Shown: piece after piece, positions 10,350-51,956 of the stretch
Numbering within the stretch: position 1 is the first letter of the stretch
How the letters are laid out: every line of letters begins with the position of its first letter
Origin: Trissonchulus latispiculum
Taxonomy: Eukaryota > Nematoda > Enoplea > Enoplida > Ironidae
Assembly (NCBI GenBank): GCA_030248195.1
Contig: JASAND010030227.1
Location: 1 to 64,000, forward strand
Direction of reading: 5' to 3'
DNA: 64,000 bases
The notes under the pieces: generated by a model
The model's database searches: none
What the model was told of the DNA's origin: nothing
The model's input: the letters and a program-made list of their open reading frames with translations, nothing else
Made by a program: the position numbers and the translations under genes

Positions 10350-10504
10350 CTCGTGATGTCTTTTTGTTTACAGAATCTCATGTTTTCCTATTTTTGTATA
10401 TTGTTTGTTTAGTATTATTTTTGTTTCATTTATTCTCTTGATGTACTGCTTTGTGTCACTGTAACTACACCATCAAGCTTGCACTTCAACTATGCACTAT
10501 AATC

Positions 10505-11670: not shown

Positions 11671-12493
11671 ATGTTGTTTTCACACTCTAGTGTGCCAATT
11701 CTACGTTCGTGGTTCACTTGGCATAGATACACTGATTTTGGAGCTATGTTTGTAGATGGATTCACAATACCAGTCCTAGTACTGGTGCCGTCTTTCATGT
11801 TAGCGGGTCAGACTATAGAAGATTCCATATCCTGTCAGATTCTCACTCAAGTAGATCCACCGCTTGTAAAATATTTCCTGGATATTTGTTTTTTCAAAGC
11901 GAGTATACCTGACAAAGACTACCTCATATTTTACAAAGATTGGGAAGAAAGATTTTAGGTTTATATTTACCCATATATGGGATTCATTGTGATGTTTATG
12001 GCGTTACTACTATATTTCCCCAGTACGATATGGAGGATAGCAAACAGAGACTGGGATGAAATTGATGTTAAAAATCCTGAACTCGATATGTATATGACAA
12101 GGAATAACTTCTACTTCTACTTCTTCTACCAACATTTTTTTATTTTGTAAAATTCTGACTGTATTGTTAATTGTTTTTGAATCTATATTAGTTGGATTTT
12201 TCACTTATCCCATCGTTATTAATAATTTTTCACTGGATAAAAGTTCGTTGCCTACAGAAGTACAATGCGGAGTACTAATGTATAGTTTCGGAAACGTAAA
12301 TGTACAGAATATTATGTGTACACTTCCACTAAATTTTTACTATTATAAATTTTTCTTGGTATACTTTGTTTGGTTGTGTGTAATATTAATTTTAATTTTG
12401 TTCCACATGCTGTATATGATATTTTATTTGATAAAGAAAAGGATGTTCAATGATATTGGACTATTATTATATCTGAAAGAGAAACAACATTAA
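11671..12493 (+). pseudogene. Innexin-like gap-junction protein, broken
   Basis: About 270 codons in innexin order. A first membrane segment (DGFTIPVLVLVPSFMLAGQ) is followed by a Cys (DSISCQ); the second extracellular-loop Cys is in YFLDICF. The second membrane segment IYPYMGFIVMFMALLLYFP ends in the family-typical TIWR. After a frame change, a third membrane segment, the second extracellular loop with TEVQCG and IMCTLPLN (the innexin C...C-LP-N pattern) and a fourth membrane segment (FLVYFVWLCVILILILFHML) follow. An in-frame TAG lies near 11956, a TAA near 12147, and the last part (12164-12493) is in another frame. Innexins are usually 350-420 residues; this one is short in the cytoplasmic loop and tail. 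Innexins form gap junctions and hemichannels in invertebrates, and polydnaviruses carry viral ones. A host pseudogene is the main alternative to a captured viral gene. A related copy lies at 52.4-53.3 kb. Confidence 0.65.
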
Positions 12494-13092
12494 ACTATGC
12501 AAACTATGCAGTTTCTTGCAGTATGTTTTCACAGAAACTTTCAAAACTATAATCTTGATTTTTACGATGATTCCATCAGAAATTCACAATTTTGATACAA
12601 AGACCTGATTTTCCTAGCTTACATTTCTATCTTTAATTCCTAGCTTTACTACCTAGATATTTGTTCGTTTGCTAACTATTTATTTGACATATGAATATTT
12701 ATTGTCTTTCCTTTTTTGCCAGCTTGCTTCTTGCTTGGTTGAAACTGCAATTGCTGAAAAAACAATCAGCATTTGTTTTTATATCACACCTGTTTACTCA
12801 GACCACTTTTTTAACTGGTGGTGATAGTAAACGAAACGAGTTGGAGCTTGTTCTTGCTGTTAAGAAAACATAAAGTACGGGTCTGCACTTAATTCAACGT
12901 AGTTTTTAAAAATTTTATTCTTTTAGCCTTGGTTTTACTTCTTCCAACGTTGTGTCTTTTAAACTCCAAATTCGTCAAATAAACTATAACCATAGAAATA
13001 ACTTATAACTTATTTCGCCTTTGGATCTTTCAAATTTCTTTAAATTATATAATCCTTTCAACAAATTAAACTTTTGCTGGGATTTTTATAGA
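12494..13092. other. A+T-rich spacer, nothing recognised
   Basis: No domain-bearing frame on either strand. The 60-codon frame at 12691-12873 is not supported by any similarity I can see. Confidence 0.4.
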
Positions 13093-21299: not shown

Positions 21300-24200
21300 C
21301 TTCTGTTCCATACAGGAACATAATTTTGTCCTACAAGGAACATCAAAGGAACTATTTAGTTTACTTTCTAAGTGTTTCTTTTGTTTCCTTTTCTTTCTTT
21401 AATTCAAACTTAGGCTTGGTGATCGTCAATAGTTTGAATTCGGGATTTAACACTGATTTTACGTGTAAATTCTCGAATTGCTTGATCAACATTCGTCAAG
21501 GTGGTTTTTTCGTGTTGTTCCCGTCACGTTTTTGAAAAAAGAAATGTTATTTTGTTTTTTGGTTCTTTTCTCTCCGAAACTAAGTTTCGGATGTTCCCTA
21601 TTTTTGTCTTAAAAGGAACATCAAAGGAACTATTTAGTTTACTTTCTAAGTGTTTCTTTTGTTTCCTTTTCTTTCTCTAATTCCGAACTTAGGCTTGGTG
21701 ATCGTCAATCCTTTGAATTCGAGATTTAACACTGATTTTACGTGTAAATTCTCGAATTGCTTGATCAACATTCGTCAAGGTGGTTTTTTCGTGTTGTTCC
21801 CGTCACGTTTTTGAAAAAAGAAATGTTATTTTCTTTCTTTGGTTCTTTTCTCTCCGAAAATAAGTTTCGGATGTTCCCTATTTTTATCTTAAAAGGAACA
21901 TCAAAGGAACTATTTAATTTACTTTCTAAGTGTTTCTTTTGTTTCCTTTTCTTTCTCTAATTCCGAACTTAGGCTTGGTGATCGTCAATACTTTGAATTC
22001 GAGATTTAACACTGATTTTACGTGTAAATTCTCGAATTGCTTGATCAACATTCGTCAAGGTGGTTTTTTCCTGTTGTTCCCGTCACGTTTTTGAAAAAAG
22101 AAATGTTATTTTCTTTTTTGTTTCTTTTCTGTCCGAAACTAAGTTTCGGATGTTCCCTATTCTTGACTAAAAAAGGAACATCAAAGGAACTACCTAGTTT
22201 TCTTTCTAAGTTTCTTTTGTTTCCTCCCTTTGATTCTTAATTTTGCCTTGGTGATCGTCAATAGTTTGAATTCGAGATTTATCACTGATTTTACGTGTAA
22301 ATTCTCGAATTGCTTGATCAACATTCGTCAAGGTGGTTTTTTCGTGTTGTTCCCGTCACGTTTTTGAAAAAGAAATGTTATTTTGTTTTTTGGTTCTTTT
22401 CTCTCCGAAGCTAAGTTTCGGATGTTCCCTATTTTTGTCTTAAAAGGAACATCAAAGGAACTATTTAGTTTACTTTCTAAGTGTTTCTTTTGTTTCCTTT
22501 TCTTTCTCTAATTCCGAACTTAGGCTTGGTGATCGTCAATCCTTTGAATTCGAGATTTAACACTGATTTTACGTGTAAATTCTCGAATTGCTTGATCAAC
22601 ATTCGTCAAGGTGGTTTTTTCGTGTTGTTCCCGTCACGTTTTTGAAAAAAGAAATGTTATTTTCTTTCTTTGGTTCTTTTCTCTCCGAAAATAAGTTTCG
22701 GATGTTCCCTATTTTTATCTTAAAAGGAACATCAAAGGAACTATTTAATTTACTTTCTAAGTGTTTCTTTTGTTTCCTTTTCTTTCTCTAATTCCGAACT
22801 TAGGCTTGGTGATCGTCAATACTTTGAATTCGAGATTTAACACTGATTTTACGTGTAAATTCTCGAATTGCTTGATCAACATTCGTCAAGGTGGTTTTTT
22901 CCTGTTGTTCCCGTCACGTTTTTGAAAAAAGAAATGTTATTTTCTTTTTTGTTTCTTTTCTGTCCGAAACTAAGTTTCGGATGTTCCCTATTCTTGACTA
23001 AAAAGGAACATCAAAGGAACTACCTAGTTTTCTTTCTAAGTTTCTTTTGTTTCCTCCCTTTGATTCTTAATTTTGCCTTGGTGATCGTCAATAGTTTGAA
23101 TTCGAGATTTATCACTGATTTTACGTGTAAATTCTCGAATTGCTTGATCAACATTCGTCAAGGTGGTTTTTTCGTGTTGTTCCCGTCACGTTTTTGAAAA
23201 AGAAATGTTATTTTCTTTCTTTGGTTCTTTTCTCTCCGAAAATAAGTTTCGGATGTTCCCTATTTTTATCTTAAAAGGAACATCAAAGGAACTATTTAAT
23301 TTACTTTCTAAGTGTTTCTTTTGTTTCCTTTTCTTTCTCTAATTCCGAACTTAGGCTTGGTGATCGTCAATACTTTGAATTCGAGATTTAACACTGATTT
23401 TACGTGTAAATTCTCGAATTGCTTGATCAACATTCGTCAAGGTGGTTTTTTCGTGTTGTTCCCCTCGCGTTTTTGAAAAAAGAAATGTTATTTTCTTTTT
23501 TGGTTCTTTTCTCTCCGAAACTAAGTTTTGGATGTTCCCTATTTTTGTCTTAAAAGGAACATCAAAGGAACTATTTAATTTACTTTCTAAGTGTTTCTTT
23601 TGTTTCCTTTTCTTTCTCCAATTCCGAACTTAGGCTTGGTGATCGTCAATAGTTTGAATTCGAGATTTAACACTGATTTAACGTGTAAATTCTCGAATTG
23701 CTTGATCAACATTCGTCAAGGTGGTTTTTTCGTGTTGTTCCCGTCACGTTTTTGAAAAAAGAAATGTTATTTTGTTTTTTGGTTCTTTTCTCTCCGAAAC
23801 TAAGTTTCGGATGTTCCCTATTTTTGTCTTAAAAGGAACATCAAAAGAACTATTTAGTTTACTTTCTAAGTGTTTCTTTTGTTTCCTTTTCTTTCTCTAA
23901 TTCCGAACTTAGGCTTGGTGATCGTCAATACTTTAAATTCGAGATTTAACACTGATTTTACGTGTAAATTCTCGAATTGCTTGATCAACATTCGTCAAGG
24001 TGGTTTTTTCGTGTTGTTCCCGTCACGTTTTTGAAAAAAGAAATTTTATTTTCTTTTTCTTTGGTTCTTTTCTCTCCGAAAATAAGTTTCGGATGTTCCT
24101 ATTTTTGTCTTAAAAGGAACATCAAAGGAACTATGTAGTCTATTTTCTAAGTGTTTCTTTTGTTTCCTTTTCTTTCTTTAATTTCGAATTTAGCTTTAGT

Positions 24201-24516
24201 GATGATCAATACTTTGAATTCGAGATTTAACACTGATTTTAGTGTAATTCTAAATCAACATGCGTCAAGGTGTTGTTTCCGTCTTGTTCCCGTCGCGTTT
24301 TTCAAAAAGAAATGTTATTTTCTTTTTTGTTTCTTTTCTGTCCGAAACTAAGTTTCGGATGTTCACTATTCTTGACTAAAAAAGGAACATCAAAGGAACT
24401 ACCTAGTTTTCTTTCTAAGTTTCTTTTGTTTCCTCCCTTTGATTCTTAATTTTGCCTTGGTGATCATCAATACTTTGAATTCGAGATTTAATTTTTTTTT
24501 TTTTTTTTTATAGATA

Positions 24517-36134: not shown

Positions 36135-37563
36135 TACTATGGACCTCCGGGAAGCGGTTACCGACCTGACCCCTCAGACGGTCAAGTGGAACCAGCCCAG
36201 CAACTTGAGTTAGTCGGGCAGCAAAACTGATAGCGGGAATCGACTGTCCGTCCCAAAAAACCTTTGTATGCAAAATTTGAGCCACCCATGTAGCAAAATA
36301 AGCGAAAAATTTAAGTTCAAAGCTCAACCCAAATTTTACCAGCTTTTTCCGGCCAGTACCGAAAAATTACGCACTCACTCTTCTTCTAGTTCTGGGGGCC
36401 TCCGCCCCCCAGACCCCCGACGAAAAAATTTTACCGCCCCCTGTCACCAAGTCATGGATCCGCCAGTGTGGCTCAGGGAACAAACTAGAGACAAGCGGTT
36501 TGTTGCATAAGAAACTTTGGATTGGGTACCATGGGATAGCGAGGGCGATTTTCGTATCTAGCCGGGATCGTTCAGTCGGCCGGCTCAAAGTTGGTCCAGC
36601 CAAATAGTCATTTTGGAAAAATTTCTAAGTCCCAACTCGACAAGAAATAGTCAAAACTAGAAAATAGGCTTAAATATGCTGTTTTGGACCGTTTAATGGG
36701 ACGCATATAACGGTTATCGGGGTCGCCCAACACGATGAGCATAGTCGCTGCGCGGTTGACCAAAAATCGCCTAAGACCCCACCCCTACATAACCACAGCA
36801 CCCTACAGCCACTTTAGATATAGGTAGCGGTTGCCCAAATGACCCTCTAGACGGCAAAGTGGAAGCAGCCCAGCAACTTGGGTAAGTTGGGGAGCAAATT
36901 TGAAAGCGGGAGTCGATTCTCCGTCCGCAAAAACCTTTGTATGCACGATTTGAGGCTTCCAGGTCGCAAAATAAGCTAAAAACTAAGTTCAAAGTTGGAC
37001 CCAAAATTCACCAACTTAGGCAGGCCAGTTCCCAAAAATTACGCTCAGGGCCGGAAAATCATATAGCAATTGAACGACCCTGATATGTGTCCTATTCAGC
37101 CATATATACAGTATTGCCCCATATATAGCGCAGTGTGTGTTTTACGGCGCGTGTGTAGATTTTTTTTTTTTTTTTGTATGTTTTGGGCCGGCGGGCCCCC
37201 CCCCCCAACATTTTTTTGGCGCTGGGGTGGGAAAAAAAAAGACTCTCTGGGCTTCTTTTTGTTGTGTACTACAAAAATATATATTGTTTTTGGTAGAAAA
37301 TTTTTTTTCTGTTGTTGTTAATAAAACCAAAAAACCCCCTACCAAAACGAAAGGGGGGAAAGGGGAAAAAACACCCCGTGGTGAGCTTGGTTGGCATTTT
37401 TTTTGGAAGGAGGAGGGGGGGGAAAAAAAGGAAAAACAAACGTGTGTATTTTTTTTGGGGAATCGGGGGAGGGGCGGGGGAGCGCAGCCTTGTTTTACAC
37501 GGTAATTCGACCATTTTCACTCATATTATCTGGCTTTTTCCTACAGGGGGGGGGGGTTCCCCC
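36135..37563. other. Dispersed repeats grading into doubtful homopolymer-rich sequence
   Basis: Two further diverged copies of the GTGGAACCAGC repeat lie at about 36150-36300 and 36820-37040 (both with AAAACCTTTGTATGCA). From about 37155 to 37563 nearly every base lies in a homopolymer run (T, C, A and G runs of 5-15), including the flank of the 5' LTR. This looks like low-quality consensus and not a gene. Confidence 0.55.
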
Positions 37564-38400
37564 TGTAGCAGACCTAGTAATTAGCTAGTTAGAAAATAAA
37601 CAAAATTAGATAAAAACTCTTCAATTAAGGATTTAGGTAAATTTATAAAATAAAGATAAATTAAGAATCTTAGGTAACAAGCAACTAGAGTAAAGGTATA
37701 CGGTAGTTAGCTAGAAACAGTAGGTAACTAGTTTATGTATCAATTGTTGTATTGTTAGTCAATAATAAAGTACTGTGTAATTGTTCTCGTCTTTTGTAAC
37801 TCTGTATTGTCTTGTCCTTGAAATTGTGTGTGTTAGCTTTGACCAAGTTAGGTTCTTTCTTGAAATTATTCCTTCTCTTTCTGTCAAAGTTAGAGCTAGA
37901 AAACTGGCCAAAAGATTTATAGTTCAGTTAGAATTGGAAATTGGATTTGGGCTCTTTAGTTTATCAACTTGCCAGAAAATAGAAAGTTCTAGAAGCTTGC
38001 TTACGTCAATAGAAGGGCCAGAAAAGAGAAACCAAAAGTTAGATTACCTTAGAGGATTCTAGAAAGAAAATTGGAAACTATTTCTGGATTTGAGATAAAT
38101 TGCTGGGTATTTCGTAATCTCCAAAGTCTTACGGTAGCCAGGAAAGGGCAACTTTGTAATTCTATTTTGTTACTTAGTCTCGGTGCTAGTTGCTGAAGAG
38201 TAAAGTCGTGCTTGTGATTCTGCTCCGATTCTGTACGCGTAATCCTGTCTTGGTCACTAAAGCATCGTGTTGTGTATTAGTTTGCCTAGTAGCCGAAGAC
38301 TCAGAAGAGAGTTAGAGCCTGAAGAGGCATACGAACTTTAACGAACTTATCCACTGCGTTTTACTCTGCTACGTCGTTGGTCAGCCCACGGCCCGCGACA
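37564..38400 (+). repeat. 5' LTR (837 bp)
   Basis: Starts TGTAGCAGACC and ends CCGCGACA. AATAAA polyadenylation signal at 37764-37769. The first 130 bp differ from the 3' LTR by indels; the rest differs at roughly a dozen sites, so the copies have aged. A 93-codon frame (37781-38062) is present in both LTRs, but the differences I read change amino acids, giving no sign of coding constraint. Confidence 0.9.
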
Positions 38401-38402
38401 TT

Positions 38403-38413
38403 TGGTAGCAGAG
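38403..38413 (+). promoter_or_regulatory. Primer binding site for initiator tRNA-Met
   Basis: TGGTAGCAGAG, two bases after the LTR, is the exact complement of the 3' end (CTCTGCTACCA) of animal initiator tRNA-Met. Part of it also pairs with a downstream sequence: CAGAGCGTG (38409-38417) with CACGCTCTG (38428-38436), a perfect 9-bp hairpin that could hide the site. Confidence 0.85.
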
Positions 38414-38471
38414 CGTGGTTTGTCCGACACGCTCTGTTTACCACGTCATCAATATTTCTCTAATTATTGGA

Positions 38472-38997
38472 ATCATCTGCCGCGCACCGCCTGCGCTATC
38501 ACTTACGAACGTCTTTCGAATCATTGCCGCACAACGTTTGTGCCCTCACCGAACCGAACTTTAAACTTTACTCATCATTTTGGTCTTCCTGCCGCGCACA
38601 GTCAGCGCATCTACGAACTTTATAAACATTTGAACTTTTACAAGGTTCTTGCCGCGCAACGCTAGCGCAAACCGAACCTTGCTCCTGAACAATCATATAT
38701 TCAGAACTTTTGCCTTGAAACTTGGGTTCTTGCCGCGCAACGTCAGCGCAACTGAACCCTTACCAATCAGTGAACTTTGACATTTGAACTTTTATTCCTG
38801 GAAGTTGGCTTGCCGCGCAACGTTAGCGCAACTGCCAACTAATTGACTGAACTTTCTGCCGCGCAACGTCAGCGCATTAGAAAGTTTGCCTGCCTGTGAA
38901 CTTTGAACTTTTACGTGTCCAGCTCCGGTCGGTTGACTAGCCGCGCAACGCTCGCGCATCAGTCGACCTCCTACTTCGCCGCGTATCGTTAACGCCG
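38472..38997 (+). repeat. Array of nine hairpins in the retrotransposon leader
   Basis: Nine units share the plan: variable outer stem, GCC bulge, 4-bp inner stem (usually GCGC/GCGC), 7-nt loop starting with A. Inner stems begin at 38482, 38529, 38594, 38654, 38735, 38815, 38861, 38943 and 38981. Two units change both sides of the inner stem together: GCAC/GTGC at 38529/38540 and GCGT/ACGC at 38981/38992. Outer stems differ from unit to unit yet pair: CAAGGTTC/GAACCTTG (38641/38674), GGGTTC/GAACCC (38724/38754), AGTTGGC/GCCAACT (38803/38834), AACTTTCT/AGAAAGTT (38850/38879), GGTTGACT/AGTCGACC (38931/38961, one G-U). Spacers often contain GAACTTT. Paired changes indicate that RNA or DNA structure is maintained. 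The role is unknown; dimerisation, packaging or translation control are possibilities. Confidence 0.85.
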
Positions 38998-39526
38998 TCG
39001 ACGACGTTTTCCCTCCGTACGACCGTCGCTGTGGATCCGTCTTCGTCGATTCCCTCGTACCCTTGGAATCTGTCTTTGCCGAATCGAGAATCCTATCCTT
39101 TGCTGTTCCGCAGTCCGCAATCACCTCCGATCGTCCATCCTACGCCAATCGGTCTGTCACTCCTGTTCCCTCCTGCCGTGGTATCAGAAGTCACCAATCT
39201 AGGACTAACCCATTCCATCAGCTCCTTACAGGTTTTCGCCCGGACTAACTCTGTGGTATCACATCAGCCCGTCCTCCCAGCTCTGCCTAGACCATCCGCC
39301 TCAGTCACGCATTGCCACCACTGTGAGCGGTTGCTCCGCCTGTTCAGAGAGGAACTCCGACGCAGACGAATCCGAAGAGAGCCTACTGCTGAGACCAGCC
39401 TGTGAGTATTGAGCCTTTAATTGACTGAATTTAAGGTATAATCAATCGTCTATGGACGCAGGTTATGAGTTTTGAATTTAATTGAGTAAGCTGGTAACCA
39501 TTTAACAAACATAACGTGATCTCAGT

Positions 39527-41724
39527 ATGAGTAATCAAAACGTTAAGGACGAAAGTGATGACGAAGTTTTGGTTAGTGCTAATCCAGATATCGAGCGTTT
39601 AGATAGGCATTCGCGTGCTATAAAATTACATGCTAAAATGCTAGAGGAATTAAAAACTGATATGAATGACTATTACGTTCGTTTGAAGACTTTACCTACG
39701 TCGCGTGATTTGCAAGAGTAGCAAAATTTTCGAGGTCAATATAACCGGTTTCAAAAACAATATTTCGATAGTAATGGAGATTTTGACTTAACCGCAGTTT
39801 CTATTTGTCCTACTGAAGCAGTTTCGTTACCTCATCATACTTTGAGACCGGTTACTGGTAAAACTGACGAGCAAAATATTGAGGACTGGCTTAGAATTTT
39901 TAAATTAGTCGCGATAGCTCAAAATTGGGATAGCGATCGGCAATTAAAAATTTTGCCCGCATTTTTGAGAGACTATGCTCTGGATGTTTACACAAATTTA
40001 CAGCCTTGTGAAAAGGGCGATATTGATACTTTGGAGCAAAATTTGATCAGACACTTGAAGCCAGCAGAATCTGAACGATTTGCTAGTATGCAGTTGCATA
40101 GCAGGGTGCAAAAGCCTAATGAAAGTGTTCAAGACTTTGCGTACGCCATTCAGAGGTTAGTTCAAAAAGCTTATCCAGGCATGCAGGAAGCAGCCGCAGA
40201 AAATTTGGCTTTTAACAGTTTAATCAATGGTTTAAATCCTTATTACAAAAAACAGCTCATTTTACAAAATCCAAAAGATTTCCCTGATGCTGTACAAAAG
40301 GCGCGACAGCTAGAAGCGCTTGAAGGTTTGAATTCAAATTCGTTTGTAAACGTTGCTTATAAAGTTTCTGCTTACGAAGCCACACCTGTTGAACGGCGTA
40401 TGCAAGCTACGGACAATGCGATTTTGATTTTCGAACTAGTAAAGCTAGCTGAGACAATGAATAAGAGGTTTGATGATTTTCAACATAAGGTAGAAGCAAA
40501 CATGGCAGATCTGCGCCAAGAAGTCAACAAACTTTCGAGTGAACATGATATTAATAATAGTAGTGACTGTAGAAACATTGCTCGTGAATTGGGATATAGT
40601 AATAACGGTAGCAAATTTCAGAATAGGAACAATGAGCAAAGTTGGGGCAGGTTTGGCAACCCTCGAAAAAAGGATGGGGTTTTTCACAATCTTTTGTCAA
40701 TCGATCGTCACGTAGATTTGACAGAAGACCTGTTTGTTTTAACTGCAATATGCAAGGACATTTGGCTGCGTCATGCTCCCAGCGTGCAGGTACACAGTTT
40801 CATAATCGACCTACAGTAAACCATTCGTTTAGACAGGACTATGGAAGAGTTTCTGCAGCTGTAGTTAACAGAGAGTCTACCATGCCTCCAACAGAAACGG
40901 TGTCTGCTTCCCACATACACTCCGAGCTTTCTGACTTGCGAATGAGTATTAAAGCCTTACAAGATGCCACTCAGCTAATTGCTAAACAAAAGCAAGATTG
41001 CACTCAGTTGCAGAATGACAATGAAGCGCTTTTTGAGCAAAATCAACGTTTGGTTCAACGTTTCTTTTCAGATTCTGAAACTGTTCCAAAAGTTCCTATA
41101 AATTCTGTGAAAGCAATGCAGTCTGAAAATGCTATTGCTAGAGTTGAGGTTAGCAGACGCCGCTTCCGTTCTCATGTTTCACATAACGTCCAAATTGGCA
41201 GAAAACGTAATGAGCTTATTAATGAAAGGAAAAAGTGGTGCGATAAAGAAAAGGAAGCGCAGATGACTTTAGTACTTGACGACTTCAGTGAATCTTTGAA
41301 AAAGAAAGGGCAAAGTTTCCACCAAAAACGAGATTTGCGGATGAAAGTTTTTATGGACTATTTTAAAGCAACATTATTTAAGTTGGCAGATGTTTCTTCT
41401 TTAGTAGCGCGTTTGCTTTTGATTCTTCTGTGCGCACTAGTCATGCAAGGAAATATGACTGCAATACCTATGAAAGAGAAGCAACTAGAGCATCAATTTT
41501 ACAGTGGAAAGCCAATTCGAAAACGGTTTAATTCTGGTAACCGCCTCGAGCTATTTAAAACTTTTGTTAAGCATGCTATAGACAAGTTGTCTTGCTTACT
41601 TTCAACGAAACTTAGTCAATATTGTTACAAGTCGTTTCGCCGCAAAAGAATGACCAGGCAACCACCTTTCCTGCAGTACCCATTTCTGCCTAAAGAGGAG
41701 ATACAGAACTACTTATTAATTTGA
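39527..41724 (+). pseudogene. Gypsy-like gag with zinc knuckle, one stop and one frameshift
   Basis: A first piece (39527-39721) ends at an in-frame TAG, and the same frame continues with the capsid-like gag domain (39842-40690: EQNIEDWLRIFKLVAIAQNW, LPAFLRDYALDVY, NESVQDFAYAIQRLVQKAYP, AENLAFNSLINGLN). Near 40665-40685, in an A-run/T-run context, the frame shifts. The other frame holds a CCHC knuckle (CFNCNMQGHLAASC, about 40735-40780) and then about 300 codons that are not protease or RT: a Gln/Asn-rich coiled-coil-like part, a basic part, and a hydrophobic stretch (SSLVARLLLILLCALVM) resembling a signal or membrane anchor. Gag would form the capsid that packages element RNA. As it stands it is interrupted; the second break could be a programmed shift, but the upstream stop argues for decay. 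Confidence 0.75.
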
Positions 41725-44700
41725 ATTTTGATCGTGGATTTCAGAACTGAATTTTTTGAATAAATTTCTAGGAAAGTTTAGAGACATGTTTTTCTGCTAC
41801 TCTGCTGCCAGTAAGCTGAATTACTGGGACCGTGTTAAGATATAAGCCTACTAACTGAGTAAACTCTTCGGTGAGTGCACCACTGGAGAGCGTTTCCAGT
41901 AAAAGGCTTTGGTTTTGTAACATGGTTTTCTTTATAAGTGAGATGTATCAGTGAAGCAAGATCATGGTTTCTTAGCTATTTTAATTGGGCTATACAATTT
42001 GAATGCTGTATTCTCATACTTGAGAAGAATTAAAAGCTAGCATGAGGTAATAGCTAAGCCCAAAGTTTCGTTTGTTTTAAATCGTTCCGATAAAAGGTTT
42101 TTAGAGGAATCTAAATTCGGTTTTAATTTTCATTCAGTTTAATTTGACTAGTAGGCGATACAGGAAACAAGTTTGACTGTTGTTTTGACTGCACAGATAA
42201 TAACCGTTAAACAAAGTTTGGGTTTAAAGTTTTATTTTTGTTAGATTGCGTTAAGGCTGGCATAAGACCAGTCCAGAGCTTTCAATTTGCGAAAAGTAGT
42301 TTTAATGAAGTTCGCGAACTAGTTTTGACACTAAGACAGTTGCGGCTGGCTGTCAGACTGAAAAGTAATCTTGAACTACAGGATCAATGATAGTTTAATG
42401 GCGAGAGCAATTTTATTAAAAAATGCTGAGTAATTTCTTAAAAAGCTTTGCATGCACTACAAATCAGGACATATTTAGCTAAGTCATGCCTGATAACAGA
42501 GATAACCATAACAGAGATCACGTTATGTCGTATATATGTATTAATTCAATATTATTTTCCAGTTAGTTATATTTCATGTGCTCTAATAATTTGTAATTGT
42601 AGTTGTTATTTGCTAACTGTTTACATTTTTATAAGATGGCGAATCCAGCTCGAAGGAATGTTTGGCGATTAAATAGAAATCTTTACTGAATATTAAGATC
42701 CGCCCAAAGGAAAGAGCATAAAACAATTCCTCCGTACTGGAGACGCCACTTTCAGAACTTAGAACGTACACTGAAATTCCTAAAGACACCCATCCGATTC
42801 CTTCTCCCAATTTCTTAATGCTTCATGTTTGTGTGTGTGTTAATTGTATTAAGATCTAAAATCATGAATTAGCTGCATTCTACATTAGTGACTACAACTT
42901 AACTACGCATTTGTGATATCAGTGCATTTAAATGTTTATACTATACAAATATTTTAATTATTATCCTAACTACCCTTTTCCTCTTTATTCCCTTATTCCC
43001 CATTTATTACTTGCCGATAACTTCTTTGCATAGCTGTTACCTGTATTTGTAGTTTATATTTATGTCGTCAATGAATTTTACCTTGCTTACCCAAACTGTT
43101 CATTTATATTGGTGTTATGTGTCCAATTATCTTACGTATTCACTAACTTACTCTTATTCGATGCTGTATTATGCGGCTTAGCTAGGTATTCCATATGTAT
43201 TGTAATTGATTTAATGTTTGTGTAGCCTATATTGTTTTGTTTGTAGCTGTCAAGTTAACTACAGTTATCTACCGTATACCGTTATGAGCTAGTCATCTAC
43301 GTCAATTACTAGTTGTCTATCATGTATTTCAGATTCGTCGTTTATACTATGTACAGTCATTCGGTATTGAGTTACGTACTTTATAGTAATTCCTTAAAGT
43401 AATAGTAATTCCTTAAACACCTTAGAATTACGTATGCTATTTCCTACTTTTCTGCTGTTAATTTACAACTAGCTGAGTTTCGTGCGGCCTAGCCAAAACA
43501 TTCGATCCTATAGCTTTTAGTTCTCGCTCCACTTATTCTTCCTTACGTAGTAATCGCTCAAGTACCAGCGAGCAAGTATTTCCAATATTTTTTCGAAAAT
43601 TTCTCACTCCTACGCTAGAATTTTACAGAAAATAATTATTTCTGCCTACAATTTACGTCTTCTTTACACGAGCACCGTGATCAATTATTTCGTGTTTTTC
43701 GATTTTACCTCTTTGTTTGCATTTAAAGGTCACAAAAGTTTAAAAAGAGAGCTAATTAGTGGATTGTTTACAAGTTTGATAGTTAGCTTGAAGTTTGTTG
43801 CTTCCACCCAGGGTTTTGAGTCGGGGGTCTAGGGCATGGCTACACGGATTGCTTGCACAGTAGTGAGGCAACTGCAATAAGATATCGTAAGTTAGCTCGC
43901 ACACCGACCTCGACGGGCTGGTCTTCCCCCTAACCAGTAGCGACGTGCTAAGAGACCAACCGAATAGGCAGATAGGCCACGGTCGGCGGTTGGGTTTCCA
44001 TTTTGGGAAGGAAACGCAACCAGTAGTGACATCCCCCTTTCGAAGGAAGCACACTCTAGCACGATCTCCCGATGGTCGGTAGCATATGAGACTTTGTGAG
44101 TGATCTAGCAATTAGCCACATCCGTGCATGCCCTCCGCTCCGGCCGCCCCGACCCCCTGACTCGTTAACAGTGGGTTTCCGCAACACAACTTCAGAACTT
44201 CTATCAGTCAGTATCGAAATTTCTTACAAATTTCTCTTTTACCGCTGTGACTAGTTTATACCCATATTATGTGAACCTTCTTTGTCTAACCTACGTAAGT
44301 ACTTATGTAATACTTTGTTTTTCTCTAAAAAAGTCCAAAAAAGATTTAGACTACATGTACGTGCAAACTGTCAGACTCCAACTTTCATCCAGTATTAGTT
44401 ATATTTCACTATCACTCATCTTTTTGTCACTTACACAGTTTCATCCACATTAAGTATTAAACATTTTTTGAAACATAATCATGGACTTTTTTATACTATT
44501 TACCTGCGTGTCTTGTCTCAATATTCTTGCCTTGGTGGACTCTCCTTTCGTTTTCAGCCTTATTTTGCAGCCGAGGTCTTAATTTTTCTTTTGGTAGGAT
44601 CCCTGAAATAGCAAAAGTAGTACTTTATAATTATTGAAATCCACAATACCATTTCAATTTTGAGCAAAGAACGTACCTCATGTTGGATTTAATTTTTCGA

Positions 44701-45373
44701 AACAGAAATTGAATTTGGAATCCACCGAATTTGTTTCATTTTGTTGTAACCGTGGTTTTCAATAAAATAATTTAACTTGAATCTTCTTTTTAAAATTTAG
44801 AGTACTCGCAAGGAAAAACCAGCTACATTTATTTCGGATTTTACCAAATGTCTCCGAATCTTTTCCGCTAAGGAAGCATTTTTCCAACCTGGGTTTGAAC
44901 TTTAGTTACTCATGGAAAATGGTCAGACTTCCAACCATCTTGTTGCCTCAGATAATTTTGTTGGACATGGTCTCAAAATTATTATACAACCTACTCTCGA
45001 CAAAGCCGTTAATTTGAAGACGAGTTTCAATGCGAACTTCGAAATGCAAATTCGCGGATTTCTTTTATTTTTTGGTTACACCGCTGGTTGTAACCTCTAA
45101 CATTGACTTATATCAGTCTGGACGGTGATGCAGGAAGTGTTTCGCAGTCCGTTCTAAACAGTTACAAATGGGTAATTAGAAAATACTAGCACTTTTTACT
45201 TTCTGGTAACATGTTTAAGCGTCATCCTGAAGACATAGTTTACTGTAAAACTTTGACATTTAGATTAATAGTAATGTTCCTTCATAACTATGCAAAAGAC
45301 TTTAAAATTACTAAACCTTCTATACATATAACGGCTCGAGAGACAACTTAATGTTTGAATTCAACTGACACTT

Positions 45374-45514
45374 TTAGCTAAGTTTCAATTTGGGTACACC
45401 AAAGACTAACAAGACCGACTTGAGTTCATCGAAAATTTCTGTATCTTGTATTTCCAGTTCGGTATACAGCTTAAAACAATTTTGCTCGATATATGCCAGG
45501 TTAGCTTTGCACGC
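45374..45514 (-). pseudogene. Possible terminal exon of an unidentified gene, antisense inside the LTR element
   Basis: On the minus strand, TCTGTTCAG (a good splice acceptor) is followed directly by 46 codons of protein-like sequence (NLAYIEQNCFKLYTELEIQD, then FDELKSVLLVFGVPKLKLS) and a TAA. Composition is mixed acidic/hydrophobic with no stop, unlike the surrounding sequence. No family is recognised. It reads opposite to gag, so introns could survive inside the retroelement transcript. Confidence 0.3.
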
Positions 45515-47041
45515 CTGAACAGAGATACAATTAGTAATCTTTGTGAACTAATTTTGCTTTCTTTTGACATAAAATGCCCGTTCCTTAACATATCCAACTT
45601 ATATTAGTTATAGCCAGAGAAGATTCAGAAAGCGGCAAATTTTATTCGTTTAAGAAAATTACCCTAAATTTGGTATAACTCAGGATTATTTTTGGGCAAG
45701 GTTTTTAATTATTTTCACTGTCAAAAACACTGTCTTCTTGAGACCTACTTCTGTGCTGTTAAATTGTTTTTTCCAAATTTTGATTTTAATTTCACGACTG
45801 GTCTCTGCAGGTTGACAATAATACCGTAGACGTTTCATCGAATTTTCACGGAGAATTAAAGTCGGTAGGTAACCCAAATGCATTCAAAACGGTCCCACAC
45901 CGGGGAAAAACTTGTTTGAAAGATTCCCGATTTGATTCCACTTCATTGTCCTTTTACAAGTATAAACGCGCAAGAAAGTAAATCATGTATTACCAAGGGT
46001 TTGGCAAAGTGTATATTAGCTACTACAAGACCTGTTTCAGTAGTCTGGCTTTTGAAATGTCCTGGTGTCTTTTCAATAGTCCAATACCAGGTTTTCTATA
46101 ATCATTGAAATCTTTGAATTGAACCGAAGCAAAATTAAAAATTACTTTTCCTCACATGTCGAATTCCACCTCTAACCTTCCGACATGACCCAATTTCGTT
46201 CGTTAAGCCGGTGATGCATTTTTGGATACACATAGTAAGCATATAGCCGAAATTCAACCTAGATTTGATGAAACTTTAAACTTTGAGAGTTGAGATGTAG
46301 TTCTGCTATGGAAGCATCTTTCTGGTTCTACCTATGGTGCGATGAAGCCAAGTTTTGTATGCTAGTGTCGAAACTTGCCAGTTTTATTGTCAGTCAGCAG
46401 ACAACTTAAAAATTGTTTGACAAATGGTTGTTTTGATACGCTCTTGCTTAAAATAGGTTTTGTCGGAATTGGCACTCGTGTAGGTCACAAACAGGTAAAT
46501 TCATACTCAAATTAAGAAAACTTCGAAAGCTGCACAACTTGGTTTTACCTAGCACCCCATACGCTAAATGATTCTGACGTTCCGGTCGACTAATTGATTT
46601 TGTCCAACATCAACCTAAGGTTTTGACCAAAGTTTGCTCCTCAAGCAGTAGCTCGATTGGATCTGAAAGATACTTTGCGCAATATATTTTGCAAACTGTA
46701 TCAATTTAGATAGACTTTTATTTACCAGTCTAAATTTTTAAAACCTTTGTTGAAAAGAATTAGCGCTTAAACTCACTGCTGTATTTAGCAATTTGGAGAT
46801 CATGAGACAATAAATTTTGATTTTGTAGAATTAAGTAAAGATGCTAATTAGTTAGCCATAAATAAATAGATTTCAGGACATGGGATTAACACCTTAAGTG
46901 ATGCTCTACGTTGTTATTACGTCCTAACAGCGAAAACCAAACATATTTTCTTTTCACCTACAAATGCGGGACTAATCCTGGAATGTGCTTTTTGCACAAA
47001 ATTTATGCTAAAGAACACTAACTAATTTATTTGGAAAGTTT

Positions 47042-47340
47042 CATCCACTTTCATAAAGAATGGGGCCAATATGGTCGAATTTACACAAAGCTATAATAGC
47101 ACCTTCGATAACTTCTTTTTGACACCAAATTTGTTTCAGACAATCATTAACTGCGCGATTCCACTTCGCTGCCACTTCAAGAAATGCGCCAGAATGATAT
47201 CGATGGAAAATTTTACCAGTATATACCATAGTTTTCTAAAGGATTGTAATCTGTAAGAGCAAATCTACCCATTCAGCGATCTTTTCACCTTCAATGGAAA
47301 CCAGAATTTTAATACAGGAACAAGTAGCTGCGACTGGCAT
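47042..47340 (-). pseudogene. Coding-like fragment of an unidentified gene, antisense inside the LTR element
   Basis: One minus-strand frame reads CIKILVSIEGEKIAEWVDLL, then a TAG, then continues in the same frame with VYTGKIFHRYHSGAFLEVAA and a helical-looking tail (RAVNDCLKQIWCQKEVIEGA). It may belong with the exon-like piece at 45374 and with another at about 46035-46140 (FKDFNDYRKPGIGLLKRHQD). I cannot name the gene; the single stop suggests decay or an unseen intron. Confidence 0.28.
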
Positions 47341-48442
47341 TTAATCCCCACTGTTTTGTTGGAAAGTACAGTCGCAAGGAGCTCCTGCGTTACCCAGTTT
47401 GTATTCGTCATGGGGGTAAACGGGACTAGGTTATGGCTACTTTTAGCAGTACGGGATTTTAATCCAACTTTTTAACCTTGGCAGCCGGCAGCGAGGAAAC
47501 ACTTTTTAAGACAAATTCATTTTCAAAGCAATCTGGTTGCAATTTTCCAAACTTTCACATTTGCGTTTCTGTGCTAAGGCTTAAAGCTCTTCGTTGGGAA
47601 TAACATGTCTGTAAAATGGACTGCAGGACCAAATATAAGTAATACGTGACCGACGAACCGACTCTATAAGTAAAAGTCTATTCTTACCGAAATCGATTCG
47701 ATAATTTAATACTTGTAAACTAGCATTTCTCACCTGTTTAGCTCTGGAGATAGACTTTTGAGCATACGGTCTCGGATCCAGTACATAGTGCAGAAATGCA
47801 CACTTGGTTTTCCATAAAGCTGGAGGGCTCGCATCTCTTCAACTACGTTAATACACATTAATACTTCGCTTAACACATCATTTCATGATATTACACTGGA
47901 TATAAATATAGAGTCGTAAACAATGTAACGTGTCCGCTTCGGGTTTAATGTTGAACTATTAAACTTATAAATACTATAAATCCTATCAAATAGTCAACTT
48001 GCTCAGTTAATAGGACATCAGCTGCCCCACATTCCATGAAATTTTCGCCCCTGCTGCGCTGTCTTCGTTCTCCAATTTTGCGTAACTTATTTATTAATAT
48101 AGCATGGAGAAGTTTCGCATACTTTGCGCGCGACATTTAAGATACGCGGAAAAGAGAATGGTACTAAATTTGTCGCATAGTGTTCACGTAGTTTCGCTTA
48201 TACATTTACTTCATGTAATTACGTAGCTAGTGTTCTACTTAGTAGCTTTCGTATCAGTATAAATCCTAATTAGTATATATATATTAGTATATATTAGTAT
48301 ATATATAAGTCTTAATTAGTATATATGGTCTGGTAACGTACCACCCGCTTAAGTGTTGGTGTCCTTAATAAGTTCAGTTTTAATAACTTCTACTGTCTAC
48401 ATGTTCGCTATTTGATTTCCAAATTGGAGGACCAATTTTTGC

Positions 48443-48455
48443 GAAGGGGGGAGAT
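48443..48455 (+). promoter_or_regulatory. Polypurine tract of the LTR element
   Basis: GAAGGGGGGAGAT lies directly before the 3' LTR start at 48457, the place where plus-strand DNA synthesis is primed. Its presence shows that the 3' LTR has its own internal sequence and is not a solo LTR. Confidence 0.8.
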
Positions 48456-48456
48456 A

Positions 48457-49326
48457 TGTAGCAGACCTAGGAAGTAATAGTTAGTTAAAATATACAATTA
48501 GGAAAAACTACTAGGTAAAATAATCTCAACATTAAACTTAGGTAAATAATTTAAGTGAATTTAAGAAACCTTTGGCTTTAATCAGAAATGAAGGCTAAAT
48601 TAGGAATCTTAGGTAACAAATAACTAAGGCATACGGTAGAAACAGTAGGTAGCTAGTTTGTGTATCAATTGTTGTATTGTTAGTCAATAATAAAGTACTG
48701 TGTAATTGTTCTCGTCTTTTGTAACTCTGTATTGTCTTGTCCTTAAAATTGTGTGTGTTAGCTGTGACCAAGTTAGGTTCTTTCTTGAAATTATTCCTTC
48801 TCTTTCTGTCAAAGTTAGAGCTAGAAAACTGGCCAAAAGATTTGTAGTTCAGTTAGAATTGGAAATTGGATTTGGGCTCTTTAGTTTATCAACTTGCCAG
48901 AAAACAGAAAGTTCTAGAAGCTTGCTTACGTCAATAGAAGGGCCAGAAAAGAGAAACCAAAAGTTAGATTACCTTAGAGGATTCTAGAAAGAAAATTGGA
49001 AACTATTTCTGGATTTGAGATAAATTGCTGGGTATTTCGTAATCTCCAAAGTCTTACGGTAGCCAGGAAAGGGCAACTTTGTAATTCTATTTCGTTACTT
49101 AGTCTCGGTGCTAGTTGCTGAAAAGTAAAGTCGTGCTTGTGATTCTGCTCCGATTCTGTACGCGTAATCCTGCCTTGGTCATTAAAGCCTTGTGTTGTGT
49201 AACAGTTTGCCTAGTAGCCGAAGACTCAGAAGAGAGTTAGAGCCTGTAGAGGCATACGAACTTTAACGAACTTAATCCACTGCGTTTTACTCTGCTACGT
49301 CGTTGGTCAGCCCACGGCCCGCGACA
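48457..49326 (+). repeat. 3' LTR (870 bp)
   Basis: Matches 37564-38400 and ends CCGCGACA. AATAAA at 48689-48694. The base after it (49327) is already inside the packaging ATPase reading frame on the opposite strand. Confidence 0.9.
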
Positions 49327-49744
49327 GTACTATAGATTGAGAGTTTATTCTATTTGTTCTCTTCCGATCATACAATATATCTTGGGTAATATGGATTACA
49401 CTACAGGACCAGTGATGACAACCTCGTGTAAATAGATCTACAAGTTTATTGTTCTTTTGCACCTCGGACATTAAATCGTCAAGTACTATTAAAGTAGGGT
49501 TTCCTGTTTTCAATTCTTCTAACGTAGGAATACCCTGATAGAATTCAATATCAGGTAGGCTTTCATAAGCATACTGCCATTCGGTGTAGCACCATACTAT
49601 TCTCTGTGGTGGTGGACTGATAATCTGATCTGCAAAGTGTATCAACCTTTTGACAAACGTTGTTTTCCCTGCTTTAGTAGGTGCTGCTACTATACAAGTG
49701 AAAGGATGTTGGAACTTCAGAAAAGGAGTTGCTGTGATAGCCAT
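49327..49744 (-). pseudogene. A32-type DNA-packaging ATPase of Polinton/adintovirus type, C-terminus cut off
   Basis: About 139 codons are open from the Met at 49744. Motifs: P-loop APTKAGKTTFVKRLI (residues about 21-36), IVWCYTEWQYAYESLP, Walker B TLIVLDDLM at about 82-90, then DLFTRGCHHWSCSVIHITQD, the family's conserved stretch ending in the sensor Thr-Gln. This enzyme class pumps viral DNA into capsids and is part of the core gene set of Polintons, adintoviruses and large DNA viruses. The reading frame runs into the 3' LTR at 49326, with only a few LTR-encoded residues before a stop, so the last part is missing; it is not found beyond the 5' LTR either. Only about 45 bp separate it from the next gene upstream if the inverted-repeat insertion is disregarded, a virus-like spacing. 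Confidence 0.85.
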
Positions 49745-49835
49745 GCTGTTTCAAGAGGATTCAAAATGGTTTCGCTTTTACTAATTTACACTTCATAAAC
49801 TTTCACTAAATCACTCCTGCTTATATGTATTGATC

Positions 49836-50699
49836 TGTTACGGGCAGATAAAAAAATTGGACACTTCTGAAAGCGTCCAGACAGATAGATAAATTATGCA
49901 TGTGCGCAGACAGATAGATCAATTCTCACAATTATCGCATTCTGTCCGGACAGATGAGTAAATTATCTATGTGTCCAGAACATGGTTGGACAGATGAGTA
50001 AATTTTTAAACTAAGAAGTAATGATGGAGAATATTTGTGCTTATAGCTGTTATTTAACTTCAGTATTAGTCTTTACTTTATTTTAAATAGTTTAAATTGT
50101 TCTAAAGCTTGTTATTATATTTTATTAGCTTATGATTGATTAAATTTTAAAATATGTTATATATTTGATTCTGTTAATTTTATGTATTATAACATTTTAA
50201 TTTAATAATTATTTTATGTACTTATTTGTGTGTAATTACCAATAAAAAGAGATTAGGCAATACGTATATAAGTAAATAATTATACGTTAGCATAAAACGT
50301 AGATATGTAAATTTTTATTAGTTTCACCTGTTGGTTTCCATTTTAAATAACGTAAAATGACGGCACCAAAATTTCACAAAGAAGTACATAAAATAACTAA
50401 AATTAATTAACAAATAAATAAATTATTAACAGCGATCACTGATTGGGACGATACCTAATAAATGCTATATAAAATTAATTAAATCAACCAACCTATTTTT
50501 AAAATAACAGATATTAGTTCTTAGTTTAAAAATTTACGCATCTGTCCAACCTTGTTCTGGACACATAGATAATTTACTCATCTGTCCGGACAGAATGCGA
50601 TAATTGTAAGAATTTATGTATGTGTCTGCGCACATGCATAATTTATCTATCTGTCTGGACACTTTCAGAAGTGTCCAATTTATTCATTTGCCCGTAACA
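49836..50699. mobile_element. Inverted-repeat DNA transposon (MITE), 864 bp, flanked by GATC
   Basis: Terminal inverted repeats of about 188 bp (49836-50023 and 50511-50699), each starting TGTTACGGGCA and containing TTGGACACTTCTGAAAG, GTCCAGACAGATAGATAAAT, CATGTGCGCAGACA and GTTGGACAGATG. GATC flanks both ends (49832-49835, 50700-50703) as a probable 4-bp target duplication; because GATC is its own inverse, it could also be the repeat tip. The A+T-rich centre (50024-50510) has no ORF. Within the repeats the word GTCCAGACAGAT/GTCCGGACAGATGAGT recurs three times, a subterminal repeat pattern typical of transposase binding. Confidence 0.9.
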
Positions 50700-51100
50700 G
50701 ATCCAATTCGAGCAAACATAACCTGTTGATCATCAATCATACATAGCTGAACATCGAAACGTTCTGCTATATATGGACACAACAGGAGACTGTCAGTTTC
50801 TGCCATTGGACATCGTCCACCATTGAAGCATTCCCACAGGAAATTTTGTATTTTATAAAATTGTTTAAGTGGATACACTTTCTGTAGTTCTCCTTGTCGT
50901 ATACCAACCTTTCCTTCTGGTAATAGCTCCACAGTAATGGGATTTAGATTATCATAAGGCGCATACCATTTGGTTGTAGGCTTTATGTATATGAGTAGTC
51001 CAAAATTAACCAATGTGAGTAATGTAACTATCGAAATTATACCATACAGAGCGTAAATGGCACATTTACTCTGCACACGTTTTTCTAAGGTAACCTCCAT
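50684..51100 (-). CDS. Small membrane protein of the virus-like cluster (3' end altered by a MITE)
   Basis: An ORF of 138 codons. Residues about 16-37 form one hydrophobic helix (YGIISIVTLLTLVNFGLLIY), followed by a soluble domain with Cys residues near 93, 98, 108 and 119, consistent with a type II membrane protein. No family is recognised; size, orientation and position next to the ATPase suggest a structural or membrane protein of the same relic. The last few codons and the stop lie inside the MITE that begins (right end) at 50699, so the original C-terminus was slightly different. The rest is open, which suggests the relic is not ancient. Confidence 0.6.
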   Translation of the reverse strand: MEVTLEKRVQSKCAIYALYGIISIVTLLTLVNFGLLIYIKPTTKWYAPYDNLNPITVELLPEGKVGIRQGELQKVYPLKQFYKIQNFLWECFNGGRCPMAETDSLLLCPYIAERFDVQLCMIDDQQVMFARIGSVTGK

Positions 51101-51211
51101 TTCAATAACGCACCGATCACTTCATTTCATATGGTTAAGTAACCTTTTTATTGATTAGCACATATACAAATCTACAGACATACATACAAGTATAGTGACA
51201 ACAAGAGCATG

Positions 51212-51892
51212 TTACTGTTTCTCTCTTCTAATTTCTTGTCGAATGTTCATTAGTATTTCATCAAGCTTATTCTTCCCAATCCATTGAGATAAAGCATTAA
51301 TTGTTGGTTCAGCAACATCTATCCCACTAGCCCAGTATGAGTCAAATTTAGTGGCTTCGGCAAGAACATCATCTCCAGTATTCAATAACAATTGCTCAAC
51401 ATCTGGGTGTTGTCTAACTTTTTCCCTAACAGCATAATCCATCACATCATTTGCAACTAACATCCATTGATCTTCTTGATATCCATTCACATGTTTACCA
51501 TGTTGCTTAGCCAAAAAAGGAGACCATGTGTTCATAATCTTCCAATACGTAGTCCAGTCATTGAAATATTTAGCTTTTTCAGCTTGATAATATTGTTCGG
51601 ATGTCCGATACACTACTCCTGCAATTGTGATGGGTGCTCTATAGAATGTGCTGAATGGATGCCATCCAGAATAGAATATAGTGCTCATTCTCCCATCATG
51701 CAGCTTGGTTTGTAGAGAGCAAAGGATTGCTTTGTCTTCATGAACCTGTTGTTTGTGCTTTTTCAGGAGTCGCCAAGTCTTGAAAGTTTCTCCACAACAT
51801 GTTCTTGATTCTCTGTCTGAGTGTATTTTGCTGATATGTTGACGGCGCTCTGCTTTACTATTGAAGGTAGCACAGCACTTAATGTCTTCCAT
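51212..51892 (-). CDS. Zinc-finger/NADAR fusion protein
   Basis: An intact 226-codon ORF. Residues about 6-25 and 32-51 are Cys/His fingers (CCATFNSKAERRQHISKIH and CCGETFKTWRLLKKHKQQVH). From about 73 on there is a NADAR (YbiA-like) domain: FYSGWHPFSTFYRAPITIAG, YRTSEQYYQAEKAKYF, LLNTGDDVLAEATKFDSYW and a following ASG in place of the usual G-x-G. NADAR enzymes act on ADP-ribose-linked or riboflavin-pathway N-glycosidic bonds; some remove ADP-ribose from guanine in DNA. Nucleic-acid-binding fingers fused to such a domain suggest action on nucleic acid, but that is inference. It lies between the membrane protein (112 bp downstream) and the unknown decayed gene (65 bp upstream), all on the minus strand. 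It could be a viral accessory gene captured from a host or bacterium. Confidence 0.8.
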   Translation of the reverse strand: MEDIKCCATFNSKAERRQHISKIHSDRESRTCCGETFKTWRLLKKHKQQVHEDKAILCSLQTKLHDGRMSTIFYSGWHPFSTFYRAPITIAGVVYRTSEQYYQAEKAKYFNDWTTYWKIMNTWSPFLAKQHGKHVNGYQEDQWMLVANDVMDYAVREKVRQHPDVEQLLLNTGDDVLAEATKFDSYWASGIDVAEPTINALSQWIGKNKLDEILMNIRQEIRREKQ

Positions 51893-51956
51893 GGTGATTT
51901 TACTTATTTGTTTGTTGTATCCTTCTTATGTCTTTTTATGTACTCAAGTGTTCATA

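Follow-up and report, generated by a model that had tools for sequence, protein, structure and literature searches.

A repeated hairpin with covarying stems in the leader of an LTR retrotransposon family, possibly a packaging signal

The marking of RNA for packaging by animal LTR retrotransposons is, to our knowledge, largely unmapped outside yeast and retroviruses, and we know of no signal in retroviruses, Ty1, or Ty3 that sets several copies of one head on different stems; those known to us consist of a few different stem-loops. HIV-1 TAR occurs in single copy in R, with a 6-nt loop and Tat as its partner, and elements of the LARD type have no coding interior. As given in the available parts of the literature, the packaging and dimerization signals of Ty1, Ty3, and retroviruses lie at the 5' end (PMC4974528, PMC11381356, PMC516450). 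For Sirevirus, the available portion of the source places its short palindromes on the 5' side of env and, within the 3' LTR, ahead of the TATA box (PMC2829016), while the accessible text on the gypsy/ZAM insulator or enhancer repeats describes protein sites in double-stranded DNA and does not mention covarying stems.

Here we describe an array of nine hairpins in a 64-kb stretch of Trissonchulus latispiculum DNA (C20493:1–64000, hereafter the window; the genome comprises 734 Mb in 21732 contigs). The array lies between the primer-binding site and gag of an LTR retrotransposon, in an ATG-free stretch, and provides what is found in packaging signals of the retroviral type, i.e. a conserved structured RNA (predicted and covarying) in the leader upstream of gag. 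It resembles the retroviral, Ty1, and Ty3 signals (psi, DIS, and GACG loops) as structured 5' RNA near the primer-binding site and gag, with conserved exposed loops and a CCHC-bearing Gag in the element; unlike those known to us, it is made of one hairpin head in several copies on different stems. With HIV-1 TAR it shares a lower stem, a 3-nt bulge on the 5' side, a 4-bp upper stem, and an exposed loop, but it is repeated, has another sequence and a 7-nt loop, and has no known Tat-like protein; it is not a member of that class. Its degenerate repeats occupy the position within an LTR retrotransposon that the gypsy/ZAM repeats also occupy; like Sirevirus, the element has repeated palindromic motifs in non-coding parts and a CCHC-bearing gag. 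The plant TR-GAG and LARD non-autonomous elements also have LTRs and a long non-coding middle, a gag-only organization being that of TR-GAG; here, however, the leader is common to copies with protease and reverse transcriptase (RT), in a probably Ty3-like clade in an animal, and the available parts of the sources mention no hairpin array for those plant elements. The earlier note knew of no described retrotransposon leader of such a kind, and the literature searched, which excluded most subscription papers, likewise held no equivalent of a repeated covarying hairpin array in a retrotransposon leader.

The element and its parts are as follows, all on the + strand.

37564–49326, +: LTR retrotransposon; two LTRs by alignment, with a primer-binding site and a polypurine tract recognized in the sequence
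37564..38400, +: 5' LTR (TGTAGC...GACA), aligned to the 3' LTR
37738..39451, +: ATG-free stretch (most of the LTR and the untranslated leader), flanked by ATGs at 37735 and 39452
38403..38443, +: primer-binding site TGGTAGCAGAGCGTGGTTT in a hairpin, right after the 5' LTR; partner strand 38428–38443
39402–39525, +: possible short intron (GTGAGT...CTCAG), read from the sequence, before gag
39527..41724, +: gag reading frame, starting at ATG 39527; broken in the window copy
41725..48456, +: long interior with no pol domain detected, ending in the polypurine tract 48444–48456
48457–49326, +: 3' LTR, from alignment of the LTR pair

The aligned LTRs are 96–98% identical from 37691 onward and only 76% identical, with several gaps, over the first 128 nt. 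The poorly matching starts are 37564–37690 and 48457–48586, and the first part of the LTR pair also aligns badly in another copy, C6266. The 5' flank (37140–37560) is rich in homopolymers, and no target-site duplication was seen at the window copy. The primer-binding site, which we take to be that of tRNA-iMet, pairs with a sequence 10 nt downstream that copies the complementary 3' end, leaving a loop GTTTGTCCGA. RNAfold predicts 15 bp with one bulged nucleotide for this hairpin (−23.2 kcal/mol), and the primer-binding site seems, on this model, to be sequestered in cis.

The gag frame of the window copy carries an in-frame TAG at 39719–39721 and a change of frame between 40636 and 40819. Its product resembles a capsid in part and has one CCHC knuckle (Retrotrans_gag, E 2.7e-4; zf-CCHC, E 0.012; neither reaches the Pfam cut-off). 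A six-frame Pfam scan of the interior (41700–48455, 6.7 kb) at E 0.1 revealed no polymerase, protease, or integrase, and the longest frame there is 119 aa. Database searches at E 0.001 returned no protein related to the gag frame or to its second half, and tblastn found no gag relatives in viral contigs or GTDB genomes. A gag structure prediction from the single sequence was useless (mean pLDDT 36.7).

The window holds several other features. A 972-aa open frame at 7431–10349, which is presumably Penelope-like, matches GIY-YIG (E 9.9e-6) and, weakly, reverse transcriptase (E 2.8e-4, below cut-off), and has 19 database relatives, the best at 37% identity. A 279-bp tandem repeat (11.5 copies) occupies 21324–24491, and a frame with trefoil and GH31 domains is also present, which together with other genes points to an animal. 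On the minus strand, 49307–51925 contains a frame resembling packaging ATPases (Pox_A32, E 0.0025; Adeno_IVa2, E 0.019; neither reaching cut-off), the end of which runs into the 3' LTR, and a frame with NADAR (E 1.2e-34) and C2H2 domains. To judge from these matches, the retrotransposon perhaps inserted into what remains of a polinton- or adintovirus-like element.

Upstream of gag, 37740–39450 (1711 nt) contains no ATG on the + strand, compared with 18.9 expected and a minimum of 9 in 500 shuffles; this 1.7-kb leader stretch is the longest ATG-free one on the + strand of the window. The only ATGs between 37735 and the gag ATG, at 39452 and 39465, both fall inside the possible intron. The GTGAGT donor is seen only in copies of subfamily A, to which the window belongs (see below), while AACGTGATCTCAGTATG ahead of gag recurs in copies of subfamily B and has one change in one A copy. 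Around hairpin unit 6, the ATG-free stretch exceeds 1 kb in 27 of 36 copies and does not in the other 9. We infer that the array lies in the mRNA leader; this leader would be scanned, and 39402–39525 would be an intron.

The array itself consists of nine cores of the form GCC-N4-N7-N4' within 38479–38995, all on the + strand, which make up 9 of the 25 such places on that strand in the 64 kb. The cores start at 38479, 38526, 38591, 38651, 38732, 38812, 38858, 38940, and 38978. In the list below, p values compare each outer stem with shuffled flanks, pair probabilities were predicted in two leader contexts, and A, B, and C denote subfamilies of copies.

38479..38496, +: hairpin unit 1; core, no significant outer stem
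38526..38543, +: hairpin unit 2; core with inner stem GCAC/GTGC, no significant outer stem
38591..38608, +: hairpin unit 3; core, no significant outer stem
38641..38681, +: hairpin unit 4, outer stem CAAGGTTC/GAACCTTG; p 0.0004; pair probability 0.82–1.0; covaries in B and C
38724..38759, +: hairpin unit 5, outer stem GGGTTC/GAACCC; p 0.0046; pair probability 0.99–1.0; covaries
38803..38840, +: hairpin unit 6, outer stem AGTTGGC/GCCAACT; p 0.004; pair probability 0.88–1.0; inner six pairs covary
38850..38886, +: hairpin unit 7, outer stem AACTTTCT/AGAAAGTT; p 0.0016; pair probability 0.91–1.0; present in A, broken in intermediates
38931..38968, +: hairpin unit 8, outer stem GGTTGACT/AGTCGACC; p 0.0002 (longer register); pair probability 0.94–0.98
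38978..38995, +: hairpin unit 9; core with inner stem GCGT/ACGC, no significant outer stem

All nine units have the GCC bulge, a 4-bp inner stem, and a 7-nt loop, as the earlier note had described. The inner stem is GCGC/GCGC in seven units and, as had also been noticed, is changed on both sides together in units 2 and 9. The loop consensus ANCGYYN holds in eight of nine units: A1 and G4 are invariant, C3 is present in eight, and positions 5 and 6 are pyrimidines throughout. Seven units match TGCCGCGCAACGNNAGCGCA with at most three mismatches, where shuffles give an expectation of 0. A hairpin model run on the window listed eight of the nine units, all but unit 9, and had no further match below E 0.2, while Rfam gave no family at the gathering threshold in the 64 kb and none even at E 5 in 37560–39560. 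The single-core pattern occurs in at least 120 stretches of viral contigs, which we take as chance; the double-core pattern has no match in viral contigs and five in bacterial contigs, also taken as chance. The motif GAACTT occurs 11 times in 38333–38905 (nine from 38556 on), out of 35 on the + strand of the window, its places being the linkers and the 5' arm of unit 7. The AACGTTA found where gag starts was rejected as a long-range partner, since the window has 11 occurrences of it against 12.9 expected.

The claim that all nine units follow one plan extends only to the core. Outer stems of 6–8 bp are found in five units, 4–8 (p 0.0002–0.0046 each), and those of units 1, 2, 3, and 9 are not significant against shuffled flanks (p 0.73–0.997), which limits the shared plan of nine to the core. 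Against the background of all window positions, at least five of nine units with such stems has P 3.4e-8. The arms pair best with their own partners (permutation p 4e-5 for nine units; the true order is the best 1 of 120 for five), and across the nine units 74% of cells are paired compared with 64% in shuffles (0/500), the covariation score being reached by 1 of 500. That five outer stems are complementary over 6–8 bp was borne out, though the arms of units 4 and 5 are partly alike.

Total folding energy was set aside as a test of the array, since 38472–38997 is ordinary against dinucleotide shuffles (z −0.89 with 60 shuffles; z −0.99 with 22 of 150 as low). The earlier note had named a folding energy no better than that of shuffled sequence as a result that would count against the fold, and for this interval that is what we obtained. 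For the block of units 4–8 (38630–38972), z is −1.7 on the + strand (9/150 shuffles as low) and −4.0 on the minus strand (0/150). The single hairpins 4–8 range from −2.15 to −3.65 on + and from −2.05 to −4.16 on minus. Among 34 windows of the element with 40 shuffles each, this block ranks second on + (z −2.2) and first on minus (z −4.2). In a 1.8-kb leader context, outer stems 4–8 are predicted at pair probabilities of 0.82–1.0 and inner stems at 0.59–1.0.

Searching the genome with 38440–39010 yielded at least 43 matches, and searching with a B leader at least 69. We compared 41 copies, i.e. A (16, like the window), A' (three intermediates: L142, L143, and L153), B (19), and C (three: L186–L188); L144, L145, the duplicates L156–L165 and L176–L185, the partial or further copies L189–L192, and unfetched matches stand outside this comparison. 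Among the matches listed between the window and B, the primer-binding-site hairpin is 91–96% identical, the stretch of units 4–6 is 69–76% identical, and a short piece matches at 39486–39529; at 39061–39396 identity is about 66–69%, with shorter pieces up to 76%, and the parts in between do not figure among the listed matches. A similar primer-binding-site hairpin is present in all copies with exact TGGTAGCAGAG (14 A/A', 18 B, and 1 C), and a distant relative, L204, has it in part.

Units 4–6 were aligned in 34 copies, leaving out L139, L143, L153, and L175, in which unit 4 or 6 is missing or partial. Between the majority sequences of the 15 A copies and the 18 B copies, the cores of these units differ at 0 of 54 columns, compared with 62 of 104 other (linker) columns, among which one extra base in the unit 5 loop of B is counted; 6 of 42 arm columns differ, some of them from a one-base shift of unit 5, as do 3 of 19 internal-loop columns. 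Covariation was tested on the outer pairs of units 4 and 6 and the inner pairs of units 4–6, the outer pairs of unit 5 being omitted because of the shift in B. In this alignment, 98.1% of 858 cells are paired, compared with 16–34% in slid registers. The covariation score is 0.090 against 0.055 in shuffles, with 20 doubly changed cells against 8.9 (each 0/500), while pairs with a double change (3 vs 1.5; 30/500) and pair types (12 vs 12.0; 456/500) are not striking.

Kinship of the copies inflates such shuffle tests, and change events were therefore weighed instead. Between the majorities of A and C, 4 of 20 outer pairs are changed on both sides, all of them compensated, and none is changed on one side only; the probability of this under random change is 2.5e-6, a crude and after-the-fact figure. 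Specifically, in unit 4 an A-U pair of A is U-A in B and C, and a C-G pair is U-A in C. A unit 5 pair is C-G in A, U-G in 19 of 19 B copies, and U-A in two of three C copies, while a unit 6 pair is G-C in A, G-U in 15 of 19 B copies, and A-U in 3 of 19 B and all three C copies. Two of the four compensated A-to-C pairs hence show wobble intermediates in B. These aligned copies indicate that the predicted fold of units 4–6 is under selection. The proposal that the fold is what is kept has gained support beyond the evidence in the window, with compensated double changes separating A, B, and C.

Not every copy or unit conforms. Outer-stem mismatches occur in single copies (unit 4 in L132, L141, L171, and L186; unit 5 in L128, L131, L140, and L188; unit 6 in L130), and inner stems are damaged in single C copies (unit 4 in L187 and L188; unit 5 in L186 and L187). 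Unit 4 is absent from L139, unit 6 is partly absent from L175, and neither unit 4 nor unit 5 was found in L143 or L153. Subfamily B has lost the seventh pair of unit 6, and the predicted pair probability of the outer stem of this unit is 0.00 in the B copy L154 and at most 0.05 in the B copy L170, while it is 0.94–1.0 in the C copy L187. Of the five units with outer stems, B and C yielded units 4–6 and neither 7 nor 8. Arms drifting without compensation in other leaders of the family had been foreseen as an argument against the fold: at the subfamily level this is not seen for units 4–6, whereas unit 7 is broken in the three intermediates and unit 8 is weakened in two of them (L143 and L153).

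The array leader is carried by copies of different coding capacity. The window gag has 112 scored matches among 2885 candidates in its own genome, of which 14 lie in open frames of 2550–2640 aa, and several gag relatives have open frames of 712–742 aa. For example, contig C10583, the leader of which belongs to subfamily B (L166), has a 2640-aa open frame that matches gag; the stretch 10200–12900 of this contig is open throughout in the same frame and encodes an aspartyl protease and RVT_1 (E 1.7e-38). In C1351, which has a subfamily A leader (92%) that lacks unit 4, a 1101-aa frame contains gag and the next frame a protease. In this contig (L194, 622–3924), the protease frame is preceded by one open frame in which gag is joined to a stretch resembling a viral fusion glycoprotein (Monjiviricetes_fusion, E 1.1e-8, above cut-off; Glycoprotein_B, E 5e-5, below cut-off); a glycoprotein placed between gag and protease seems unusual. 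By contrast, gag is open over 726 aa in C6266, where no further frame longer than 94 aa precedes the 3' LTR. The description of the element as gag-only fits the window copy, by the six-frame scan, and C6266, but a B leader of the same family heads the gag-protease-RT frame of C10583. Against the plant definition of TR-GAG (LTRs and a single gag, no pol), the window copy has no pol domain but a broken gag, and C6266 has an open one.

At the sequence level, the array leader thus appears in both gag-only and long-frame copies. Copies with this leader family match Ty3_capsid at E 1.1e-4 at best, below the Pfam cut-off, and have a CCHC knuckle above cut-off in L197; the clade is probably Ty3-like, an assignment that rests on weak capsid matches. 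The leaders of six of the 112 gag relatives, all distant (50–67% aa identity), contain no array (0/6, no unit at ≤4 mismatches), although L203, L207, and L205 (the last cut by a contig end) may be incomplete. Two places in them have five mismatches, one at the primer-binding site, and the best covariance-model E-value is 4. Four of the six have the same primer-binding site, which was not found in L203 and L207. Judging from these six leaders, packaging in the wider family would not depend on the array.

A repeated binding site is typically marked by unpaired letters that stay constant on stems that covary, and repetition of the head points to avidity. Our preferred reading, which we hold tentatively, is that the array is a multivalent RNA-binding site, most likely a packaging signal for Gag and perhaps one for dimerization. 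The leader RNA of the + strand would carry one common head (the 5' GCC bulge, the 4-bp GC stem, and the loop ANCGYYN), which in the best units would stand on an outer stem of free sequence provided that pairing holds, and this head would be recognized by one protein, or by one RNA partner. The partner would most likely be the Gag of the element itself, acting through its CCHC knuckle; Gag is the best candidate because of the position of the array, the knuckle, and the occurrence of the array in both gag-only and gag-pol copies. Gag would then select the RNA of the element, and because the array is common to both kinds of copy, gag-only copies could be packaged and mobilized by gag-protease-RT members.

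The main rival to Gag as the partner is a host protein, for which the array would be a landing platform governing export, stability, localization, or translation, much as the constitutive transport element or a protein site of the TAR type acts. This is a serious alternative, albeit one we consider rather improbable: core conservation and covariation support it just as they support packaging, the array lies within a long leader kept free of ATGs, and its absence from the sampled distant gag relatives is what an optional add-on would produce, but nothing in 37560–39560 resembles an Rfam family even at E 5, and we know of no host partner. A partner RNA would be a second copy of the leader if the CG-centered loops kissed between two molecules, the repeated units forming a zipper-like contact. 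Loop positions 3–4 are CG in eight of nine units, ACGT is held by four loops and AACGTT by two, and GACG loops and kissing hairpins act in retroviral dimerization, according to the available part of the source (PMC516450). Yet ACGT is missing from the other five loops, the 3' half of the loop is constrained only to Y-Y, and unit 4, which covaries across A, B, and C, mostly has the non-palindromic loop AACGCTA; by sequence, a self-complementary loop is not kept in family members. The loop-loop kissing proposed in the earlier note is hence weakly supported, ANCGYYN looking more like a recognition sequence; with only four of nine loops suitable, kissing through palindromes was rejected as the main reading, and we regard dimer linkage as unlikely.

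The remaining alternatives question whether the + strand RNA is what matters. A DNA-level array of chromatin or transcription factor sites in the 5' untranslated region, as in the gypsy/ZAM insulators and enhancers, is quite improbable. The cores are nearly palindromic and 38461–39000 is CpG-rich (observed/expected 1.53), but the core is presumably unlike the su(Hw) site, and a duplex site gives no reason for arms to keep complementarity through two-sided change with wobble intermediates. According to the available parts of the literature, tandem repeats are common in 5' untranslated regions, where some are insulators: of 49 LTR retrotransposons tested in D. melanogaster, 19 have them (PMC8872304), and gypsy has 12 su(Hw) sites within 350 bp (PMC7168160). 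A function of the minus strand, as antisense RNA or single-stranded cDNA, is more improbable still: units 4–8 fold better against shuffles there (z −4.0 vs −1.7), but the common B forms (G-U in unit 6, 15/19; U-G in unit 5, 19/19) pair on the + strand and become A-C mismatches on the other, and the absence of ATGs is a property of +. Private changes (nine of wobble type and five of A-C type on +) do not decide the strand; overall, + is likely the functional one. That the array has no function, being chance or leftover tandem duplication, agrees with the ordinary folding energy of the whole interval, but it is contradicted by the outer-stem statistics, the core conservation, and the compensated changes, and is hardly credible.

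If the array is a packaging signal, one may go further and suppose, more doubtfully, that this clade evolved a multivalent packaging code, in which one head repeated on mostly distinct stems would be read by Gag through avidity, gag-only copies would parasitize those with protease and RT, and the stems would have diversified so that each head folds alone. For packaging in animal LTR retrotransposons, one short RNA motif and one Gag of the family would provide a natural experiment and a direct binding test, the repeated head with free stems being confined to a defined clade as far as the leaders of six sampled relatives show. Our findings also suggest that leader repeats, which the available sources treat as sites in DNA, can be selected structures of the RNA.
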